Shown here piece after piece: positions 3,612 through 14,022 of a stretch of DNA of 44,194 nucleotides. The DNA is taken from positions 1 to 44,194 of the forward strand of contig JAAZNW010000022.1 of assembly GCA_012798065.1 (NCBI GenBank), read 5' to 3'. Below the pieces are notes generated by a model. The model was not told the origin of the DNA. It was given only the letters and a program-made list of their open reading frames with translations, and did no database searches. The stretch's first letter is position 1. Each line of letters starts with the position of its first letter. The stretch is from Chloroflexota bacterium (GTDB lineage Bacteria; Chloroflexota; Anaerolineae; Anaerolineales; Anaerolineaceae). The position numbers were made by a program, and so were the translations under genes.

Positions 3612-4166
3612 TTACTTGATGAACATTTTTTGAATTCTGAGCAATAGATCGCGCACGATCGCTTCAACCAACACTGGATCATCGATCAGCGTGGAGAGCT
3701 CTTCCTTTTCCAGGGATACCATCGGGCCGTCTTTCCCTGCCAACCAACGAAGGTGAATGCCAAAAGTTGAAAGGTTCTTGACTATCTTCGCCAGTCTGAC
3801 GGCTGGGGATGCGTGTTGAACCTCGAAGTGTTGATATTGTTCCAGCAGGCATTTTGAAAGATATTCAGCCAGCGCCTCTCGACTTGACTGTTGATCTTTG
3901 TTTTGGAGATGAAGATTGATCAAATGGTCGATCAAAAAGCGGGCAAGTGCGTCGGGGGCAGACCTCAATCGAACAAATTGACGCGCTGGTCGCCCTGCGC
4001 CAGCCTGGTAAGAGTCTGGAAGTACAGCAATTTCACCATTTTTAAGCAATATTCGAATGTGGTAATGAATGTCCGCTTTGGTGAGGTTGAGGTCACGGCT
4101 CAACTGTGAAACGGTCGCGGATGCATGGGCCTCCAAGTAGTTTTTTATTTTCGTGAAAGTGTTCAT
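3612..4166 (-). CDS. Winged-helix transcriptional regulator divergent from the nuo operon
   Basis: A 184-aa protein whose first 60 residues form a helix-turn-helix of the ArsR/MarR-like winged type (VSQLSRDLNLTKADIHYHIR, then a wing near GEIAVLPD). The remaining 120 residues are mostly helical and are not recognised. No cysteine or histidine cluster suggests metal sensing. It is divergent from nuoB with 93 nt between the start codons. That gap holds an inverted repeat and a tandem 9-bp repeat, so the simplest inference is that the protein binds there and controls the nuo operon, itself, or both. The ligand is unknown. The assignment to a DNA-binding regulator is firm; the subfamily is not. 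Confidence 0.75.
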   Translation of the reverse strand: MNTFTKIKNYLEAHASATVSQLSRDLNLTKADIHYHIRILLKNGEIAVLPDSYQAGAGRPARQFVRLRSAPDALARFLIDHLINLHLQNKDQQSSREALAEYLSKCLLEQYQHFEVQHASPAVRLAKIVKNLSTFGIHLRWLAGKDGPMVSLEKEELSTLIDDPVLVEAIVRDLLLRIQKMFIK

Positions 4167-4204: not shown

Positions 4205-4232
4205 TTGACAATCCCGTACGGCCGCTTACAAT
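4205..4232 (+). promoter_or_regulatory. Sigma-70 type promoter for nuoB operon
   Basis: TTGACA (4205-4210), a 16-nt spacer and TACAAT (4227-4232) give a near-consensus promoter 28 nt before the nuoB ATG. A gggagga ribosome site (4249-4255) follows. Confidence 0.7.
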
Positions 4233-4259: not shown

Positions 4260-4925
4260 ATGGATGTAAAGCCTGAGCTTAATCACACCGAAATAGACAT
4301 ACCTGCTGAATTGCGCCAGCAGGTAACCATCACAACCCTCGAACGCATCTATAACTGGGGGCGCAGCAACTCATTATGGCCGATGATGTTTGGATTGGCC
4401 TGTTGCGCGATCGAAATGATTTGTACCGCAGCAAGCCGCTATGACTTCTCCAGGTTTGGTATGGAGGTCATGCGCCCCAGCCCGCGGCAGGCAGACGTGA
4501 TGATCGTGGCGGGAACGGTCACCAAAAAAATGCTGCCTAATATCATCAGGTTGTATAACCAGATGTCTTTACCCAAGTATGTGATTGCCATGGGAACCTG
4601 CGCTTCTGGCGGTGGACCTTTTAAAGAAGGCTACAACGTGGTGCCAGGTATTGATACTTATATTCCGGTGGACGTGTATATTACGGGCTGCCCTCCCACC
4701 CCTCAGGCATTGCTCAACGGGCTGATCGCCTTACAGGAGAAAGTAAAAAAAGAGCAATTGAAAGAATCAGGCTGGTACACGAAAGAACCGGGGAAAGACA
4801 TCCCTGTTCCTGTGTTGGGTCCTGATATTATCGATCCACGGAAAAAAGACCTCATTTATACAGAGACGCATCGACCTGAACCAACAGTTGTTGAAGAAAA
4901 TGAAGCGGCGGGAGAGGACAAATGA
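4260..4925 (+). CDS. nuoB: NADH-quinone oxidoreductase subunit B
   Basis: NuoB carries iron-sulfur cluster N2, the last electron carrier before quinone in respiratory complex I, at the junction of the peripheral and membrane arms. The 221-aa product has the expected cluster ligands Cys48 and Cys49 (LACCAIEM), Cys114 ([11 protein letters not shown]) and Cys144 (ITGCPPTP). The last 60 residues are a charged extension rich in Glu/Lys and Pro, longer than in short NuoB proteins. The ATG at 4260 has a strong gggagga site 4-5 nt upstream. It is the first gene of the operon, and its stop overlaps the nuoCD start (ATGA at 4922-4925). No nuoA precedes it; the preceding gene is the divergent regulator. 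Confidence 0.96.
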
Positions 4926-6670
4926 GCGAATTGACTGTTCTTCACCCTGAGTATGAAGCGCTGCTCCAGCGATTCGCGCCGAATGTGGAACCAGATACAA
5001 GACCTGGCTTTTCAGGTATTGTGGTTTTGCCTGCTTCTTTGATTGAAGTGGTCACTTACCTGAAAGAACAAATGGGTTTTGATTACCTGTCTTCTGTTAC
5101 CGCGGTTGACCAGTATCCTGATGATCAGTTTGACGTGATTTACCACCTCTATAAAACGATCGGGGGGGAAGGACTGGAACTCAAGGTATTTACCACAAGA
5201 GAAAACCCTGTTGTACCAAGTGTGACCCAGCTGTACCCTGGCGCTGATTTCCAGGAGCGCGAGATTTGGGATATGTTTGGTATTCGTTTTTCAGGCCATT
5301 ATGACCTGCGGCGTTTATTATTATGGGAAGGTTTCTCCGGCTTTCCGTTGCGCAAGGACTGGCACGAACCCCTTTTTGAGGAGGAAGTGAAACCCTATAA
5401 GAGCCGTTGGCCAGAAGGGAGAGCGTTTCACAAAGAGCAGACGAATCCCTTTCATGACAACGTGCAATATCCAAAGGAGTTCGACCCGGAGAGTGTTTCG
5501 ACCGACGCTGACGAGAGCCTCTATAAAGCTTTGACCGCCAACCTGGCAAATGATGAGGATGGACTTCACACAGACCGCATGGTGGTGAACATCGGACCCC
5601 AGCATCCATCTACGCATGGGGTTTTTCGGATGAGCGCTGTCCTCGAGGGCGAAACAGTCGTCGCTTTAAAACCCGTGTTGGGTTATATGCATCGAAATCA
5701 CGAGAAAATTGGCGAGCGCAACACTTTTCTACAAAATATGCCTTTCACTGACCGACTGGATTACCTTTCATCGATGAGCAATAACTTCGGATACGCGATA
5801 ACCGTTGAAAAGTTGCTGGGTCTTCCGCCCCCTGAAAGAGGGGAATTTTTGCGGGTTATGATGGCAGAACTTACCAGGATAGCCAGTCATACCATGTCCA
5901 TTGGTTTTTTGCTTAACGACCTGGGAGCATTCTTTACACCATCTTTGTACGCGCTGGAAGAGCGCGAATTAATCCTGGACATTTTTGAATCGGTGGCGGG
6001 TTCGCGCATGATGTGCAACTATTTCCGCTTTGGTGGTGTGGTACGTGATATCAGCGCGGCCGACTTTGCAAAAGTCAAGTACCTGGTTGAGGAGCGCCTG
6101 CCGAGAAAGATCGATGACCTTGACCGTTACCTGACCGACAATGAAATTGTCCGTTCGCGCTGTGAAGGTGTGGGTGTGCTGACAGCTGAAGAGGCTATTG
6201 CCTGTTCCGCGGCTGGCCCCATCTTACGCGCTTCTGGGGTGCCGTATGATATTCGCCGGGCCGACCCATACAGTATTTACGATCGATTCGAGTTCGATGT
6301 TTGCTACCGTAATCACGGTGATGTGTACGACCGCTATTTGGTGAGATTGGATGAAATCCGCCAGAGCATACGCATCCTCAAGCAGGTCATTGAGCAGATA
6401 CCTCCAGAAGGACCCGTGATGAATGGAAAGGTGCAATACCTGGTGAAGGTCCCGCCGGGTGAATCTTATGGTCGAGTGGAAGGACCGAGAGGAGAGCTGG
6501 GATTTTATGTCGTCTCTGATGGGAAGGTCAACCCGAAGAGATATCATGTTCGCGCGCCTTCACTGATCAACCTGACCGGGCTGGAAAAAATGTGTGTTGG
6601 TGGCAAGATCGCAGACGCGGTGACGATACTGGGGTCTGTCGATATTGTGTTAGGTGAAGTGGACAGGTAA
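4922..6670 (+). CDS. nuoCD: Fused NADH-quinone oxidoreductase subunits C and D
   Basis: A 582-aa fusion of the 30-kDa NuoC and 49-kDa NuoD subunits of complex I. Residues about 1-190 are NuoC, with the signature [15 protein letters not shown] and PLRKDW. Residues about 215-582 are NuoD, beginning near [15 protein letters not shown], with [11 protein letters not shown] and the terminal [12 protein letters not shown]. NuoD forms the quinone-binding pocket together with NuoB. The nickel-binding CxxC pairs of hydrogenase large subunits are absent, so this is a NuoD rather than a membrane-bound hydrogenase subunit. Fused NuoCD proteins are known in several bacterial groups. The start overlaps the nuoB stop, implying coupled translation; nuoI follows after 12 nt. 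Confidence 0.95.
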
Positions 6671-6682
6671 AAAGGAGCACAG

Positions 6683-7252
6683 ATGAACGGCACAGGGATA
6701 ATCAAAGGTCTGGCGGTTACCATTCGGCACTTCTTCTCTACTTATTTCGCTGACCAATTCGGGTTGGGAAGAGCAAAAGCCAAACGCGGTACGATGATGG
6801 CTGAAGGCTTATTCACTGTACAGTATCCAGAAGAGTCTGTAACGGTTCCTGAGGAATTTAGGGTAATTCCCTTTCTGGTTTACACAATTGAGGAAGATGG
6901 ACAAAAGAAATACCGTTGCACCGCGTGTGGAATCTGCGCGAAAGTATGCCCAACCCAGTGCATCTGGATCACACGGATGAAGAATGAAGAAACAGGGAAG
7001 CCGGTACCAGAATCAGCGGAATTCTACATCGATATTGACAAGTGCATGAACTGCGGCTCATGCGCTGAGTTTTGTCCATTTGACGCGATAAAAATGGATC
7101 ATGATTTTCGTATCGCCAGTTATACCAGCGGAGACTCGCATATCTACAATAAAGAACGCTTAGGAAAACCGCTAGAATATTATGCTAAAATTCGACCGAC
7201 CAATTACGCTCAAGAAGAAGCGCAGCGGGCAGCCAAGGCGCAAGCCGGGTAG
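6683..7252 (+). CDS. nuoI: NADH-quinone oxidoreductase subunit I (2x[4Fe-4S] ferredoxin-like)
   Basis: NuoI carries clusters N6a and N6b, passing electrons toward NuoB. The 189-aa product has two Cx2Cx2Cx3C motifs: Cys79, 82, 85, 89 and Cys121, 124, 127, 131, with one extra cysteine at 93. The N-terminal 40 residues include the usual amphipathic segment (FFSTYFADQFGLG). The C-terminus after residue 150 is Lys/Ala-rich. A strong AAGGAG site precedes the ATG. In many genomes nuoH lies between nuoD and nuoI; here it is missing and no other membrane subunit (A, H, J-N) is in the window, so the membrane arm must be encoded elsewhere or this is a partial locus. Confidence 0.95.
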   Translation: MNGTGIIKGLAVTIRHFFSTYFADQFGLGRAKAKRGTMMAEGLFTVQYPEESVTVPEEFRVIPFLVYTIEEDGQKKYRCTACGICAKVCPTQCIWITRMKNEETGKPVPESAEFYIDIDKCMNCGSCAEFCPFDAIKMDHDFRIASYTSGDSHIYNKERLGKPLEYYAKIRPTNYAQEEAQRAAKAQAG

Positions 7253-7257
7253 CAAAA

Positions 7258-7602
7258 GTGACCATGCTTAACTCAGATACGGAAATTCTCTTCCCAATCC
7301 GGGTGATACCCTCTCTGCGGAATCTCCGTGGTGAAGAATGGCAGGCGTTGATCGATCGTTTGACCACAGCGGAGGTTGAAGAGATCGGGCAGGCTGCCTT
7401 CAGCCTGATGATGGTGAGGTTAGGTGGCTGCGCCGGCTGCAATGCGGATTCGTTTCGCGCGATGCGCGGCTGCACCCATTGTGCCCAGTTGACCGTAAAA
7501 CGTTTTAAAGGTTCCGATGATGACCTGTTGCAGCTTTATAGGGATACACTTGAGGAAGTGATTGGACACCTGGCAAAATATGAATTAATTGAGGAACAAT
7601 GA
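7258..7602 (+). CDS. Small four-cysteine protein coupled to mrp, function unknown
   Basis: I do not recognise this 114-aa protein. Its centre carries two CxxC pairs, Cys58/Cys61 (GGCAGCN) and Cys72/Cys75 (GCTHCAQ), separated by ten residues including basic FRAMR. This layout could bind one Fe-S cluster or a zinc ion. The flanks are predicted helical and acidic. The start may be the GTG at 7258 or the in-frame ATG at 7264; neither has a good ribosome site. Its stop overlaps the mrp ATG (ATGA at 7599-7602), so the two are probably translated together. It sits between nuoI and an Mrp ATPase that lacks its own CxxC, which suggests (inference only) a role in Fe-S handling for complex I. It is not a clear NifU, IscA or ferredoxin by motif. 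Confidence 0.75.
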   Translation: MTMLNSDTEILFPIRVIPSLRNLRGEEWQALIDRLTTAEVEEIGQAAFSLMMVRLGGCAGCNADSFRAMRGCTHCAQLTVKRFKGSDDDLLQLYRDTLEEVIGHLAKYELIEEQ

Positions 7603-8675
7603 AACTTACAGTTGAGATGGTAACAGATGCTCTCCGAAACGTGATTGAACCGGAACTGCATAAAGACCTGGTAAGCCTTAAAATGGTAGAAAACATCCAG
7701 GTGGCGGGGGAAAGTGTGGAACTTACTGTCGTGCTTACCACGCCCGCCTGCCCATTAAGTAAAAAAATCGAAAAAGAGGTAAAAGAAGCTGTCCTTGCAA
7801 TCCCAGGCGTGAGTTCAGTAAAGGTCAACATGACCGCCCGTGTGCCATCTGATGGGAAAAACCGTGAGGTGTTAAGCTTGCCGGTGAAAAATGTTGTGGC
7901 AGTGGCATCAGGCAAAGGCGGAGTGGGTAAATCTACGGTAGCGGTGAATATCGCTGTCATATTGGCACAAAAAGGCGCCAGCGTGGGTTTACTGGATGCA
8001 GATATTTACGGTCCCAACATACCTACCATGATGGGTGTAGACTCACTACCCCCGCCTGAAGATGGTAGGTTAGTTCCAGCAAAGGCTTATGGCGTAAAGT
8101 TGATGTCGATCGGCTTTATGGTACGCAAAGGTCAACCGTTGATCTGGAGAGGCCCGATGCTGCACAGCGCTATCCGGCAATTCCTGGCGGACGTGAACTG
8201 GGGCGAGCTGGATTATCTGATCATTGACCTCCCCCCCGGCACAGGCGATGCCCAGTTAAGCCTGATGCAGCACGTTCCGCTGAGTGGCGGCGTGATCGTG
8301 ACCTTGCCCCAACAGGTTTCACTTGAAGATGCGGAACGGGGTTTACAAATGTTCACAGAGATGAATGTGCCTGTGCTTGGGATTGTGGAGAACATGAGCT
8401 ATCTCCCGATGCCAGATGGATCAAAAATGGACCTGTTCGGTAATGGCGGCGGAAGAAGAATGGCTGAACGCCTGGGAATTCCATTTTTAGGGGAGATCCC
8501 GGTTGAACCGGCGGTGAGGATCGGAGGGGATTCGGGGAAACCAATTGCGTTAAGCGACACTACTTCTGCAGCGGCACAATCTTTGACCCGAATCGCGGAA
8601 GCGATGGCAGCCCAGATCAGCATCGCAGCACTCACGGGAGCTCCCGCTGGAGAACCTAAACAAGGAAATGAATGA
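7599..8675 (+). CDS. mrp: Mrp/ApbC-type P-loop ATPase for Fe-S cluster delivery
   Basis: A 358-aa protein with an N-terminal MIP18/DUF59 domain (about 1-90) and a ParA-like nucleotide-binding domain. The deviant Walker A is SGKGGVGKST, followed by DADIYGPNIPTM and LIIDLPPGTGD, all diagnostic of Mrp. Family members (bacterial ApbC, eukaryotic Nbp35/Ind1) bind and transfer [4Fe-4S] clusters. The usual CxxC after ENMSY is absent: the segment reads ENMSYLPMPDGSKMDLFG. CxxC-less Mrp proteins also exist in Actinobacteria, so the loss is not unique. It is coupled upstream to the four-Cys protein and downstream to the PSP1 gene (ATGA overlap at 8672). Being in the nuo operon, it may serve complex I assembly, as Ind1/NUBPL does in mitochondria. 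Confidence 0.92.
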   Translation: MKLTVEMVTDALRNVIEPELHKDLVSLKMVENIQVAGESVELTVVLTTPACPLSKKIEKEVKEAVLAIPGVSSVKVNMTARVPSDGKNREVLSLPVKNVVAVASGKGGVGKSTVAVNIAVILAQKGASVGLLDADIYGPNIPTMMGVDSLPPPEDGRLVPAKAYGVKLMSIGFMVRKGQPLIWRGPMLHSAIRQFLADVNWGELDYLIIDLPPGTGDAQLSLMQHVPLSGGVIVTLPQQVSLEDAERGLQMFTEMNVPVLGIVENMSYLPMPDGSKMDLFGNGGGRRMAERLGIPFLGEIPVEPAVRIGGDSGKPIALSDTTSAAAQSLTRIAEAMAAQISIAALTGAPAGEPKQGNE

Positions 8676-9586
8676 TGGAAACACCGTCTTCTCAGTTAAT
8701 TGTTGGCGTACGGTTTTCAAAGGTGGGTAAGATCTATAATTTTGATGCGACGAAAATTCAAAATATTCAAAGAGGGGATGTGGTAGTCGTTGAAACCAGC
8801 CGTGGGTGGCAATTAGGCGAGATTATCACCCTCTCAACACCAGAAAGTCAAAACGCCGATAGCACCTGGAAACCAATCGACAGGCTGGCGACACCAAAGG
8901 ACTTGATTCAACGTCAATTTTGGCAGAATAAAGAGGGCGAAGTAATTGAACAATGCGCAAGCCGGGCAAAAGAGTTGAAACTTCGCGGTATAAAGATAAT
9001 CGCGAGTGAATATAGCTTTGATGGAACTCGCTTGAACATCCTCTTTAGCAGTGAAAACGAGGAAAAAGTTGAATTGAAATCGCTGCGCGCGGATATGCAG
9101 CGTCAGTTCGCACCCGCACAGGTGGAATTAAGGCAGATTGGCCCACGCGACGTGGCGAAGATCATGGGAGGCATGGGCGCGTGCGGTCTTGAATCTCGCT
9201 GCTGCACCCGTTTTATTACTGAGTTTTCATCCATTTCGATCAAAATGGCAAAAGAACAGGGAATATCGCTCACGCCGACAGAAATTACGGGTATGTGTGG
9301 TCGATTGCGCTGCTGCCTGATCTACGAGTATGAGAACTACCTGGAAGCGCGCAAAACACTGCCAAAGAAAAACAAAAGGGTGATCACGCCCAACGGAGAG
9401 GGCAAAGTGGTTGATGTCTACCCCATACGAGGCGCTGTTCTGGTTGATATTCCTGAAATTGGAAGAAAAGAGTTTAATCAAACCGAAATTCAGGCTGCCG
9501 ATGAGCAGGAGGTGCTCAACCAGGCAGCGGCTTCTTTCGTCGCCAAGCATAGCGGCAGCGGCTGCGAGCAATGCAAGCGTAAATGA
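8672..9586 (+). CDS. PSP1-domain (RicT/YaaT-like) protein
   Basis: A 304-aa protein with an N-terminal beta-rich region (GVRFSKVGKIYNFDA) and the PSP1 C-terminal domain typical of Bacillus YaaT/RicT. Six cysteines cluster in the signature region: Cys171, Cys177, Cys178, Cys209, Cys214 and Cys215 (GACGLESRCC and GMCGRLRCC). A further CxxC (298-301) sits at the very C-terminus. In B. subtilis RicT joins RicA and RicF in a complex that carries two [4Fe-4S] clusters and affects RNase Y. Two adjacent ATGs (8672, 8675) are possible starts; the first overlaps the mrp stop. In the operon with mrp and nuo genes, its cysteines add to an Fe-S theme. RicA and RicF partners are not in the window. Confidence 0.9.
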   Translation: MMETPSSQLIVGVRFSKVGKIYNFDATKIQNIQRGDVVVVETSRGWQLGEIITLSTPESQNADSTWKPIDRLATPKDLIQRQFWQNKEGEVIEQCASRAKELKLRGIKIIASEYSFDGTRLNILFSSENEEKVELKSLRADMQRQFAPAQVELRQIGPRDVAKIMGGMGACGLESRCCTRFITEFSSISIKMAKEQGISLTPTEITGMCGRLRCCLIYEYENYLEARKTLPKKNKRVITPNGEGKVVDVYPIRGAVLVDIPEIGRKEFNQTEIQAADEQEVLNQAAASFVAKHSGSGCEQCKRK

Positions 9587-9598
9587 GACGCTGGCAAA

Positions 9599-10321
9599 AT
9601 GGAGAACCCTGAGGGCTGGAAAACCAAGAAAAAGATCCTGGCCATTTTTGCCCATCCAGACGATGCGGAATTTTTCTGCGGGGGAATGATTGCTCGATGG
9701 GTTGACCAGGGTCATTGTGTATCCTATTGCTTGCTGACCAAAGGTCAACGAGGTTTTCACGAAAAAGGCATGGATTTGACGACCATGGCAGAAATTAGGG
9801 TTCGGGAGCAAATGGCTGCCGGTTCTGTATTAGGCGTGACGGATATCCGTTTTCTTGAACATCTGGATGGTGAATTGGTCGCAGATATCGCGCTGAGAGA
9901 AGAAATCATCCAAGAAACCCGAAAACAAAAGCCAGATATCGTCGTCAGTTGTGACCCAACCAACTTGTTTCCTGCGGTAAACCGCATTAACCATCCAGAT
10001 CACCGGGCTGCAGGCCAGGCGGTAATAGACGCGGTTTTTCCAGCTGCTGGCAGCCCCGCGTACCAATTCAACGATAAGTTAACAGCCACTGAAGCCCACC
10101 AGGTTGAAGAAATGTGGCTGGCATTGACCCAACAGCCGAATTTCGAGATTGTATTAACGAATTACCTTGAAAAAAGGATTCGGGCTATCCTGTGCCACCA
10201 CTCTCAGGTACAGGCAACCGCTGAAGAATTGCTCGATAAGTACTTGAAACCTTCTTTGGCTAGAGAAGGGACGGACGCGCCAGCGTATTGCGAAAAATTC
10301 CTGCGAATCATCTTCAATTGA
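9599..10321 (+). CDS. PIG-L/LmbE family zinc-dependent deacetylase
   Basis: A 240-aa member of the PIG-L family, which removes N-acetyl groups from sugar conjugates (GlcNAc-PI, GlcNAc-inositol in mycothiol synthesis, diacetylchitobiose, or the BshB step of bacillithiol). The zinc-binding AHPDD motif is at residues 18-22 and a second HPDH at 132-135 supplies the third ligand. The rest has the expected alternating beta/alpha pattern. There is no signal peptide, so it is cytosolic. It follows the PSP1 gene by 12 nt and is probably the last gene of the nuo operon; a new promoter lies downstream. The substrate cannot be read from sequence, and no thiol-biosynthesis gene is next to it. Confidence 0.88.
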   Translation: MENPEGWKTKKKILAIFAHPDDAEFFCGGMIARWVDQGHCVSYCLLTKGQRGFHEKGMDLTTMAEIRVREQMAAGSVLGVTDIRFLEHLDGELVADIALREEIIQETRKQKPDIVVSCDPTNLFPAVNRINHPDHRAAGQAVIDAVFPAAGSPAYQFNDKLTATEAHQVEEMWLALTQQPNFEIVLTNYLEKRIRAILCHHSQVQATAEELLDKYLKPSLAREGTDAPAYCEKFLRIIFN

Positions 10322-11138: not shown

Positions 11139-11162
11139 TTAAAAACCGGAGCGAATATTTTG

Positions 11163-12974
11163 ATGACTAAACCCACGATGATTGAAAATGAATTCTGCAT
11201 TACCTTCAGCACAGTCAATGGTTCAGGCAGCGCTACCGCGAACATCACCCTGATGCGAGCATTGTTTCGCATGGGCATACCCGTTTCTGGAAAGAATATT
11301 TTTCCCTCCAACATTCAAGGACAACCGACCTGGTTCACATTGCGCTTGAGCCGGAAAGGCTATATCGCCCGCAAACAAGAGGATGACATTATTGTAGCAA
11401 TGAACCCTTCTACTGTTGGGAAGGATATCTCCTGCCTTGTGCCGGGCGGGGTAATGTTGATTCCGGATGATTTCGAATATGTAAACCCTCGTGATGACAT
11501 CGTGGTGTACGAGATGCCAGTGCACGAATTAGTTCTGCAGGCGGAAATTCACACCGCGTTTCGCGAATACATCGCCAACATGGTATATGTCGGGGTGCTG
11601 GCTTCCTTGCTCAAAATTGAAATGGAAGCGATTTACAACGCACTAGATTACCATTTCAAGGGAAATGCCAAATCGATTGAAATCAATTATAAAGTTGTTG
11701 AACTGGCTTATAAATGGGCGGAGAACAACCTTACGAAGAAGGATCGTTACCTCACCTCTCGCATGAATGGAACAAAGGGGTGCATCATGACCGATGGTAA
11801 CACCGCAGCCGCGTTAGGGTCGATCTATGGAGGAGTCCAGTTCGTCTCCTGGTACCCCATTACGCCTGCTACCAGCCTGGTAGAAACGCTGCACGAGTAT
11901 TTACCGCAGTTACGCCAGGATCCTGAAACGGGGAAGGACACCTTTGCGGTTGTTCAGGCTGAAGATGAATTAGCTGCAATCGGTATGGCGATTGGCGCGG
12001 GTTGGGGTGGATTGCGGGCGATGACCTCCACTTCGGGCCCAGGGTTATCTCTCATGACTGAATACATTGGTCTGGCGTATTACGCTGAAGTGCCCGTCGT
12101 TATTTGGGATGTTCAACGAGTGGGACCCAGCACCGGTATGCCTACAAGGACTGCTCAGGGGGACCTGACGATGGTCAACTTTATCAGTCATGGGGATACA
12201 CAAATTCTCATCCTGATCCCTGGAACGATCAATGAGTGTTTCGATTTTGGCTGGATGGCTTTTGATATTGCCGAGCGTTACCAAACACCGGTAGTGGTGC
12301 TGTCTGACCTTGATTTTGGTATGAATCAATGGATGACAAAAAAATTTAAATATCCAGACCGCCCGATTGATCGTGGAAAAGTGTTGTGGGAAATGGACCT
12401 GGAAAAACTACTGGAAAAGAATCATGGTGAATGGGGTCGCTACCTGGATATTGATGGTGATGGGATACCGTATCGCACTTTACCGGGTAATAAACATCCC
12501 AAAAGCGGGCATTTTGTGCGCGGGACAAGTCACGATGAGTTTGCTCGATACACGGAAGATGGCATTACTTGGGTAAACAATTTCAACCGGATAAAGAGCA
12601 AGATCGACTTTGCCCGCGAGTCGCTGCCGGAGCCGTTTGTGACTTTGCAGCCAGGGGCGGAAATTGGCATCATCGCTTCCGGTTCGGTTGACCCGGCTGT
12701 TGTTGAAGCGAGAGATTTATTGAACGGAGACGGCATCAAGGTGGATTACCTGCGCGTCAGAGGGATTCCCTTCTCACAAAAAGTGAGGAATTTCATCGAA
12801 ACACATCGCATCACCTATGTGGTGGAAATGAACCGTGATGGTCAACTACTGCAACTATTGACGATGAATTTTCCAGATGTGGCTTATAAATTACGCAAGG
12901 TCGCCCATATGGATGGGCTGCCGCTGACAGCAAAATGGGTGAAGAAACAGATCAAATCGGGAGAGGGAAGATAA
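11163..12974 (+). CDS. korA: 2-oxoacid:ferredoxin oxidoreductase, fused gamma-alpha subunit
   Basis: This subunit, with KorB, oxidatively decarboxylates a 2-oxoacid (2-oxoglutarate is the commonest for this architecture) to the acyl-CoA while reducing ferredoxin. About 600 aa: residues about 1-190 are the gamma domain (GSGSATANITLMRALFRMGI), followed by the alpha pyrimidine-binding domain (GGVQFVSWYPITPATSLVE, then QAEDELAAIGMAIGAGWGG and TSTSGPGLSLM). The C-terminal domain ends with a typical GLPLTAKWVKKQI. The gamma-alpha fusion is standard for KorAB. The start could be the TTG at 11160 or the ATG at 11163; a GGAG at 11148-11151 fits either. korB follows after one base. Pyruvate or branched-chain oxoacids cannot be excluded as substrate. 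Confidence 0.92.
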   Translation: MTKPTMIENEFCITFSTVNGSGSATANITLMRALFRMGIPVSGKNIFPSNIQGQPTWFTLRLSRKGYIARKQEDDIIVAMNPSTVGKDISCLVPGGVMLIPDDFEYVNPRDDIVVYEMPVHELVLQAEIHTAFREYIANMVYVGVLASLLKIEMEAIYNALDYHFKGNAKSIEINYKVVELAYKWAENNLTKKDRYLTSRMNGTKGCIMTDGNTAAALGSIYGGVQFVSWYPITPATSLVETLHEYLPQLRQDPETGKDTFAVVQAEDELAAIGMAIGAGWGGLRAMTSTSGPGLSLMTEYIGLAYYAEVPVVIWDVQRVGPSTGMPTRTAQGDLTMVNFISHGDTQILILIPGTINECFDFGWMAFDIAERYQTPVVVLSDLDFGMNQWMTKKFKYPDRPIDRGKVLWEMDLEKLLEKNHGEWGRYLDIDGDGIPYRTLPGNKHPKSGHFVRGTSHDEFARYTEDGITWVNNFNRIKSKIDFARESLPEPFVTLQPGAEIGIIASGSVDPAVVEARDLLNGDGIKVDYLRVRGIPFSQKVRNFIETHRITYVVEMNRDGQLLQLLTMNFPDVAYKLRKVAHMDGLPLTAKWVKKQIKSGEGR

Positions 12975-12975
12975 A

Positions 12976-14022
12976 ATGACCGAAACTGTCCATCCAACCA
13001 GTCAAAATACCAATATCGCGGGACTTACTCGCGCAGATTATCGCGGAGCCCCGACAACACTTTGCCAGGGTTGTGGTCACAACAGCATCGCAGCGCAGAT
13101 AACCGCGGCCTGCTTTGAAATGAATATCATACCGGAAAACCTGGTGAAATTTAGCGGTATTGGCTGCTCCAGTAAAAGCCCGGCTTACTTTCTGGGGCGT
13201 TCTTTCTGCTTCAATGGACTTCATGGCCGCATGCCATCGCTCGCTTTAGGGGCGCTTTTCGCGGATAAAACGCTTGAAGCCATTGGCATCAGCGGGGATG
13301 GAGACACTGCCAGTATCGGTTTTGGTCAGTTTAAGCACTTGATCAGGCGTAACCTGCCATTGGTCTATATCATAGAAAACAACGGCGTTTATGGGCTCAC
13401 GAAAGGGCAATTTTCAGCAACCGCTGAAAAGGGACTGTCTCTGAAACGCCAGGGCACCAACCCTTTCACGCCAGTGGACCTGGCGATGGAAGCCTTGATC
13501 TCTGAAGCCACTTTTGTCGCCCGCTCTTTCGCCGGCGACCCGAAACAGGTTAAACAATTGATCAAAGCGGCTATCGCTCACCAGGGGATCGCGGTCATTG
13601 ACATCATCAGCCCCTGTGTTACTTTTCATAATCATGAGAATTCATTCCACTCTTATTCATTCGGCAAGACTCATGAAGAGCCGTTGCACGAGATTTCACT
13701 TGTGTTGGCTCGAGAGGAAATCACGGTGGATGATTTTGAGCGCGGTACGACGAAAGAAGTTACCATGTACGACGGCAGCGTTGTTTTACTGAAAAAACTC
13801 GAGAACGAATACGACCCCACAGATAAATGGCAAGCTTTGCGCACACTGGAAGACGCCGCCAACAATAACTGGTTATTGACCGGATTGATTTACGTTAACC
13901 CAACCGCGCCAACATTGTTTGACAAATATAACCTGCCTGATACTCCATTAAATAGATTACCTGCAGATAAACTACGACCTTCGCCGCAATCACTGGAGCA
14001 AATTAATCAATCCATGTTTTAG
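12976..14022 (+). CDS. korB: 2-oxoacid:ferredoxin oxidoreductase beta subunit
   Basis: A 348-aa thiamine-pyrophosphate-binding beta subunit. Cys30, Cys33 (LCQGCGH) and Cys64 (GIGCSS), together with a later cysteine in ISPCVTF near residue 213, are the usual [4Fe-4S] ligands. GDGD (107-110) and ENNGVYGLTKGQFSAT form the TPP/Mg binding region seen in KorB. No separate delta ferredoxin subunit is present, so a free ferredoxin would accept electrons; with a NuoEFG-free complex I elsewhere in the operon order this would be a natural electron route (inference). The stop codon overlaps that of the convergent GNAT-like gene (14019-14022), and no terminator is seen. Confidence 0.94.
   Translation: MTETVHPTSQNTNIAGLTRADYRGAPTTLCQGCGHNSIAAQITAACFEMNIIPENLVKFSGIGCSSKSPAYFLGRSFCFNGLHGRMPSLALGALFADKTLEAIGISGDGDTASIGFGQFKHLIRRNLPLVYIIENNGVYGLTKGQFSATAEKGLSLKRQGTNPFTPVDLAMEALISEATFVARSFAGDPKQVKQLIKAAIAHQGIAVIDIISPCVTFHNHENSFHSYSFGKTHEEPLHEISLVLAREEITVDDFERGTTKEVTMYDGSVVLLKKLENEYDPTDKWQALRTLEDAANNNWLLTGLIYVNPTAPTLFDKYNLPDTPLNRLPADKLRPSPQSLEQINQSMF

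Follow-up and report, generated by a model that had tools for sequence, protein, structure and literature searches.

In contig JAAZNW010000022.1 of a Chloroflexota bacterium of the family Anaerolineaceae (assembly GCA_012798065.1; 44,194 nucleotides, hereafter the window), a cluster of nuo genes, nuoB-nuoCD-nuoI, is followed by a gene for a small four-cysteine protein (4C), by mrp and by ricT, all on the forward strand between positions 4260 and 9586. Judged by gene layout, the nuo genes code for the Q-module of a 2M-type complex I and stand apart from its other genes, and 4C belongs to an undescribed protein family whose members at this locus group together in one part of the family tree. We tentatively propose, with somewhat less than even confidence, that 4C may be an optional accessory which would serve the iron-sulfur (Fe-S) maturation of the 2M Q-module, together with the Mrp-type ATPase at loci that encode both.

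Organization of the cluster

The first three genes encode complex I subunits. The product of nuoB (4260-4925) matches PF01058 (97 bits) and NF005012 (241.9 against a cut-off of 116), and that of nuoCD (4922-6670), a fusion with both PF00329 and PF00346, matches NF004739 (432 against 360). The nuoI product (6683-7252) is divergent, with two Fer4 stretches carrying two 4Fe-4S motifs and a TIGR01971 score of 87.7, below the cut-off of 113. They are followed by 4C (7258-7602), which has a C-x2-C-x10-C-x2-C motif and was defined by family alignments, a tree and a helical model, and by mrp (7599-8675), encoding a P-loop ATPase with an N-terminal MIP18-like domain and no CxxC pair (PF10609, 325 bits; PF01883, 76 bits). 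The last gene, ricT (8672-9586), encodes a PSP1 protein (PF04468, 49 bits) that passes the cut-off of the RicT family (NF041131, 192.3 against 70), RicT/YaaT being part of the Bacillus Ric complex.

A preliminary description made from the sequence alone had read the same gene set, including the absence of CxxC from Mrp, and coordinates and family matches bear this out. The coupling by ATGA overlaps that it reported is present at nuoB/nuoCD (4922-4925), 4C/mrp (7599-7602) and mrp/ricT (8672-8675) and absent from nuoCD/nuoI and nuoI/4C, where the genes are separated by 12 and 5 bases, respectively. It is plausible that the genes from nuoB to ricT form a single transcript. As for the 114 residues given to 4C, the two CxxC pairs were confirmed; the protein is more likely of 112 residues, starting at the ATG in 7264 and not at the GTG in 7258, since many homologues begin with M-Y-x-x-D-x-E.

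A 2M-type complex I with a detached Q-module cluster

A complete nuo operon running from A to N, in which nuoC and nuoD are two genes and nuoE, nuoF and nuoG are present, lies on another contig of the same genome (G000:C35; L236, 72000-91000), which rules out that the window genes represent the ordinary complex I. They are nuo genes, as the earlier description had it, of a second, 2M-type set. A third set of genes, nuoA-nuoH and nuoH-J-K-L-M, was found across the ends of contigs C15 and C21 (L240/L241), and we infer that both pieces of nuoH belong to a single gene. These two contigs gave no match to nuoB, C, D, E, F, G or I, and the contig ends inside nuoM, so that a second nuoM is not visible. 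In the window, only nuoB, nuoCD and nuoI matched the nuo queries, and no match to nuoE, nuoF or nuoG was obtained there or in L240/L241. When eight relatives were searched with the NuoL of this set and six of the best loci were fetched, all six displayed the order A-H-J-K-L-M-M-N (L242-L246, L248), and in G213, assembled as a single contig, this membrane-arm operon and nuoCD are about 297 kb apart.

The 2M complex I, ascribed to Chadwick et al. 2018 in PMC7117926, consists of nuoLM1M2N plus separate nuoBCDI with fused nuoCD. The window also has a fused nuoCD and nuoBCDI apart from the membrane-arm operon, and it is this match of a split A-H-J-K-L-M-M-N operon plus a detached nuoB-CD-I group to the 2M layout that identifies the window genes, at the level of gene content, as the detached Q-module cluster. 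The set differs from the canonical 14-gene NADH complex I in having no nuoE, nuoF or nuoG at its loci. It shares the absence of the NADH-oxidising module with a known complex I type, from which the window and its relatives differ in the split clusters, the fused CD, the extra nuoM (in the relatives) and the 4C-mrp-ricT genes.

The genome holds three complex I-related sets, namely a canonical one with E, F and G, the 2M-type one spread over two loci, and one on contig C98 (L237, 1-13000) that we take to be hydrogenase-like from cysteine motifs judged by eye. Contamination of this metagenome-assembled genome as the source of two sets is unlikely, because G202 (99% complete, 1% contamination) also carries both the canonical (L247) and the 2M-type genes (L244 and L031).

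The 4C family

The cysteines of the window 4C are residues 58, 61, 72 and 75. All four were invariant in the 25 class members gathered without a cysteine-bearing pattern and in the 81 rows of a larger alignment (A3), 80 of which had been gathered through the pattern DS[YF]R[AG]MRGC. The ratio of nonsynonymous to synonymous substitution rates (dN/dS) was 0.07, 0.08, 0.10, 0.12 and 0.13 in five of ten pairs, synonymous sites being saturated in the other five. By these sequence measures 4C is a real gene under constraint.

Matches to 4C were found in 175 of the 249 genomes of its class, and in 116 of the 162 with 90% completeness and no more than 5% contamination. When 300 genomes of the phylum (class share unstated) were searched by profile, the 19 matches obtained all lay inside the class. 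A pattern search of genome_contigs yielded 252 confirmed stretches encoding a 4C relative, of which the best 80, those with named loci, were all labelled Chloroflexota, the pattern having been built on linked-type and MYT-type sequences. The window protein had no match in Pfam or NCBIfam up to E 0.1 and none among PDB sequences, and PHROGs returned a single row at E 0.12. The 81 members of A3, searched against Pfam up to E 10, matched any one family with at most two members (best E 0.0028), and the A3 profile met one PDB chain only, at E 1.4. The family is unnamed, undescribed and without match to known families, and comprises lineage-restricted helical proteins of about 110 residues.

The AlphaFold model of the window protein (mean pLDDT 79, pTM 0.75) has helices at residues 14-23, 26-36, 42-56, 73-82 and 87-113. 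Three of the cysteines fall in the poorly defined stretch between helices three and four, and the last lies at the start of helix four; the model of a paralog had a comparable layout (pLDDT 82). A metal, which would be an Fe-S cluster or zinc, is probably bound by the four invariant cysteines. A likeness to AhpD/carboxymuconolactone decarboxylase, suggested by a motif noticed by eye, was discarded, Foldseek against PDB giving only E 2.5 or worse for both models; the few antioxidant or thiol proteins that appeared at E of about 6 to 8 are no evidence.

Linkage of 4C to nuo, mrp and ricT

We built a tree with one 4C sequence per locus (116 distinct sequences from 117 loci) and labelled as linked those with nuoI, mrp or ricT within 3.5 kb. 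There were 62 linked and 44 unlinked sequences, plus 10 left without label at contig edges, some of the fetched regions having been picked by hand, in part because they were linked or unlinked. The two labels required only 2 changes over the tree as compared to a mean of 34.1 after shuffling, and none of 500 shuffles was as low, in a test that is favoured by near-copies and on an alignment of few columns in which many forks are unsupported. This separation argues that the tie to the locus is real. The linked sequences, the window protein among them, make up one part of the tree, and the unlinked paralogs two groups, many of which can be recognized by their MYTxNE or MYPDSE starts. Both kinds coexist in some genomes (G222, G127, G023).

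Among the linked loci, 45 extend 3 kb or more to both sides of 4C. In these, nuoI was found no more than 2.5 kb upstream in 38, and no more than 350 bases upstream in 31; on the downstream side, mrp was within 2.5 kb in 37, the overlapping mrp of the window included, and ricT within 3.5 kb in 21. Counted by genome, on the basis of the about 150 places listed per search, nuoCD and mrp were within 12 kb of each other in 72 of the 116 genomes with both listed (median 2.7 kb), despite contig breaks. A listed mrp was no more than 5 kb from 4C in 42 genomes, and every one of these had a nuoCD match: 38 belong to the listed strong nuoCD set and the other four have nuoCD rows of 1e-136 or better. 4C thus shows a conserved association with nuoB-CD-I and with mrp, mostly within a single part of the tree. 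A small gene lying mostly away from mrp and nuo genes had been named beforehand as an argument against a joint role; this is the case for the family as a whole, where 4C is near nuoCD or mrp in 58 of 137 genomes by listed places, and not for the part of the tree that holds the window gene.

The two CxxC pairs suit zinc as well as Fe-S, and 4C might have a structural zinc site or act in dithiol redox chemistry, in a function outside Fe-S such as regulation or the chaperoning of another partner, and would then owe its seat in the operon to expression. The varied genes that adjoin its paralogs (infC/rplT, lipoprotein-like and others, named by eye) point in the same direction. Against it, the linked sequences come from many families and nevertheless cluster apart from the unlinked ones, and we regard this explanation as unlikely.

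An Mrp-type ATPase without CxxC

The window Mrp passes the P-loop test of PF10609 and has the deviant Walker A GKGGhGK[ST] (SGKGGVGKST in the translation). It shares this P-loop and the Walker A GKGGVGKS with the Mrp/ApbC/NBP35 carriers, including Ind1/NUBPL, whose link with complex I is functional, whereas that of the window protein is by gene position. Other members of the Mrp family carry 4Fe-4S clusters (PMC6345978, PMC8593673), and CxxC is a main signature of the family (PMC6345978). Where four of the five listed solved homologues have this CxxC, the window protein reads ENMSYLPMPDGSKMDLFG, with ENMSYLPMPDG at the position, and for this reason we classify it as an Mrp-type ATPase and not as a cluster-carrying Mrp.

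The CxxC was missing in 66 of the 67 Mrp rows read directly from loci of the class (L092 and L197 being one locus counted twice). Of the 30 Mrps that scored best in a sample of the phylum, among them one from the class, 23 had it. With a DNA pattern (ENM-x4-CxxC) applied to the 249 genomes and 150 listed Mrps, which misses variants in spacing or in the ENM start, it was missing in 41 of the 42 listed Mrps that lie 5 kb or less from 4C, as compared with 78 of the 108 others (Fisher p 0.0002, kinship ignored).

These figures, together with the adjacency and ATGA overlap of 4C and mrp in the window, favour the idea put forward in the preliminary description, that is, a bipartite loader, a single unit in which the cysteine ligands would come from 4C and the ATPase from the Mrp without CxxC. 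Other loci speak against it. The CxxC was also missing in 11 Mrps of family f2 and 9 of family f36 that are nuo-linked and where no 4C was found. A 4C match was absent from 11 of 12 f2 genomes and from 13 of 13 f36 genomes, and a search with the 4C profile in 15 genomes (six f2, six f36, and one each of f13, f21 and f38) gave nothing better than E 0.4. In eight f2 and f36 loci that were fetched, the nuoB-CD-I-mrp order was intact without 4C and Mrp had no CxxC, the distance from nuoI to mrp being 157 to 612 bases by matched ranges. Outside the class, seven Mrps (L224-L228 and L233 of f77, L235 of f67) have APDTGKRYDIFG replacing CxxC, and for f67 and f77 the phylum profile search reported no 4C match. 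Conversely, in G026 the Mrp that lies about 2 kb from 4C has a CxxC, and two loci (L142 and L144) show nuoI-4C-ricT with no mrp between 4C and ricT. A strict split of CxxC and ATPase between two genes is rejected on account of the f2/f36 loci, the absence of CxxC from the 78 non-adjacent Mrps, G026, and L142/L144. These loci, and the genomes with mrp elsewhere, indicate that the two proteins are not obligate halves, and a loader of this kind seems quite improbable. In the genome under study, a second Mrp (L178 4959-6068, G000:C81) has one cysteine of the motif left (YPCPDGGGNHEIFG).

A possible role in Fe-S maturation

NuoB and NuoI are 4Fe-4S subunits of complex I. In the explanation that we favour, 4C would bind metal through its four cysteines and would fill or hold the 4Fe-4S clusters of these two subunits before they join the complex, the Mrp-type ATPase acting alongside where both are encoded at the locus. 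We infer this metal binding, action on NuoB/NuoI and cooperation with Mrp from the clustering of the linked sequences, the nuoI-4C-mrp order, the presence of nuoCD in 42 of 42 genomes, the invariant cysteines, the dN/dS values and some Fe-S neighbours.

The latter come from 54 loci without nuoI, mrp or ricT, in which 4C has an HdrD-like gene beside it in seven, a CO dehydrogenase gene in two and a NifU_N/SufU-type gene in one. Set against no background rate, these neighbours lean towards Fe-S chemistry. Several findings weigh against a maturation role, the first being that 44 of those same 54 loci have none of the three neighbours. No 4C match was obtained in 37 of the 150 genomes with a listed strong nuoCD (a hand count, some genomes being incomplete), so that 4C cannot be needed everywhere. 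The family also occurs in at least 10 genomes without a nuoCD match at 1e-40 (three of them less than 75% complete). The copy is an unlinked paralog in the nuoCD-less G002, G101, G158 and G187, and it follows that the family, taken in its entirety, is not restricted to complex I. In addition, the window Mrp has no counterpart of the cluster-binding CxxC of the Mrp/ApbC/NBP35 carriers, and Foldseek with the 4C models gave no match below E 2 in PDB or among viral structures.

The position of nuoI in the 38 loci mentioned above would also suit a different function, in which the linked 4C would be an additional subunit in the periphery of the 2M enzyme, for electron entry or docking at the NuoI tip in place of NuoEFG, with ferredoxin or another compound as donor. 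The 2M membrane operons were seen without nuoEFG, and the electron donor of NuoEFG-less enzymes is unsettled (PMC11238625). Six genomes, by listed places, have mrp elsewhere than 4C, which is near nuoCD: in G117, G144, G154 and G160 at least 6 kb was read beyond 4C with no mrp, and in G199 only 0.8 kb of contig follows 4C. The L142 and L144 loci, without mrp before ricT, and the KorAB-like genes downstream (named by eye) agree with a subunit as well. On the other hand, the 37 genomes with a strong nuoCD and no 4C match tell against it, as do paralogs at nuo-free loci and eight genomes that, by listed places, have 4C near mrp and nuoCD elsewhere (in G052, G065, G081 and G125 at least 3.8 kb was read upstream with no nuo genes, the other four being at contig ends). 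We consider a subunit of this type unlikely and prefer a maturation role for the linked 4C. The wider statement that the linked 4C is a new complex I accessory, a small helical Fe-S protein for the 2M NuoB/NuoI module that would act either as a cluster loader or as an electron feed replacing NuoEFG, appears to us doubtful.

In the literature on Mrp and complex I, on complex I of Anaerolineae/Chloroflexi and on RicT, no title or abstract opening described 4C or an mrp beside nuoBCDI, and the accessible part of PMC7117926 does not mention 4C, Mrp or RicT beside these genes. The 2M complex I has been proposed to pump an extra proton (PMC7117926). If the linked 4C does serve the 2M enzyme, it would be a bacterial factor whose genes tie it to a single type of complex I, and a candidate for how a NuoEFG-less complex I is matured or fed electrons. 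Apart from this, a constrained and unnamed family that is frequent in the class is described here, the nuoB-CD-I-mrp order provides a bacterial gene-level parallel to the mitochondrial link between Ind1 and complex I, and the lineages with and without 4C offer natural comparisons.

Neighbouring genes and other observations

Loci of f18, f33 and f39 (L179-L183, L042, L045, L186, L187) have a gene of FAD amine-oxidase-like type immediately behind 4C, followed by mrp in most, and several of them encode an HdrD-like Fe-S protein with CCG domains further downstream. Some unlinked 4C paralogs adjoin infC or rplT (L033, L041, L157 and others; named by eye). A lipoprotein-like gene lies opposite an unlinked 4C, on the other strand, in 11 of 39 loci; the match of this gene to DUF3426 (28.2 against a cut-off of 27.7) gave no function.

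In the window, a promoter-like site on the forward strand (TTGACA-16-TACAAT, 4205-4232; 11 of 12 consensus matches) precedes nuoB. Since the promoter-like and terminator-like sites of the region are no more numerous than in shuffled sequences, this site is only suggestive. Downstream of ricT, a forward-strand gene for a PIG-L deacetylase (9599-10321; PF02585, 94 bits), found behind ricT in some relatives too, is probably not part of the 4C/nuo system. KorA/KorB-like genes for a 2-oxoacid:ferredoxin oxidoreductase, named by eye from their translations, lie 1.6 kb past ricT (11160-14022), with homologues also downstream in L031 and L032, and such neighbours would be in keeping with ferredoxin as donor. 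Finally, a helix-turn-helix-like gene, recognized by eye on the reverse strand at 3612-4166 and divergent from nuoB, is a candidate regulator.

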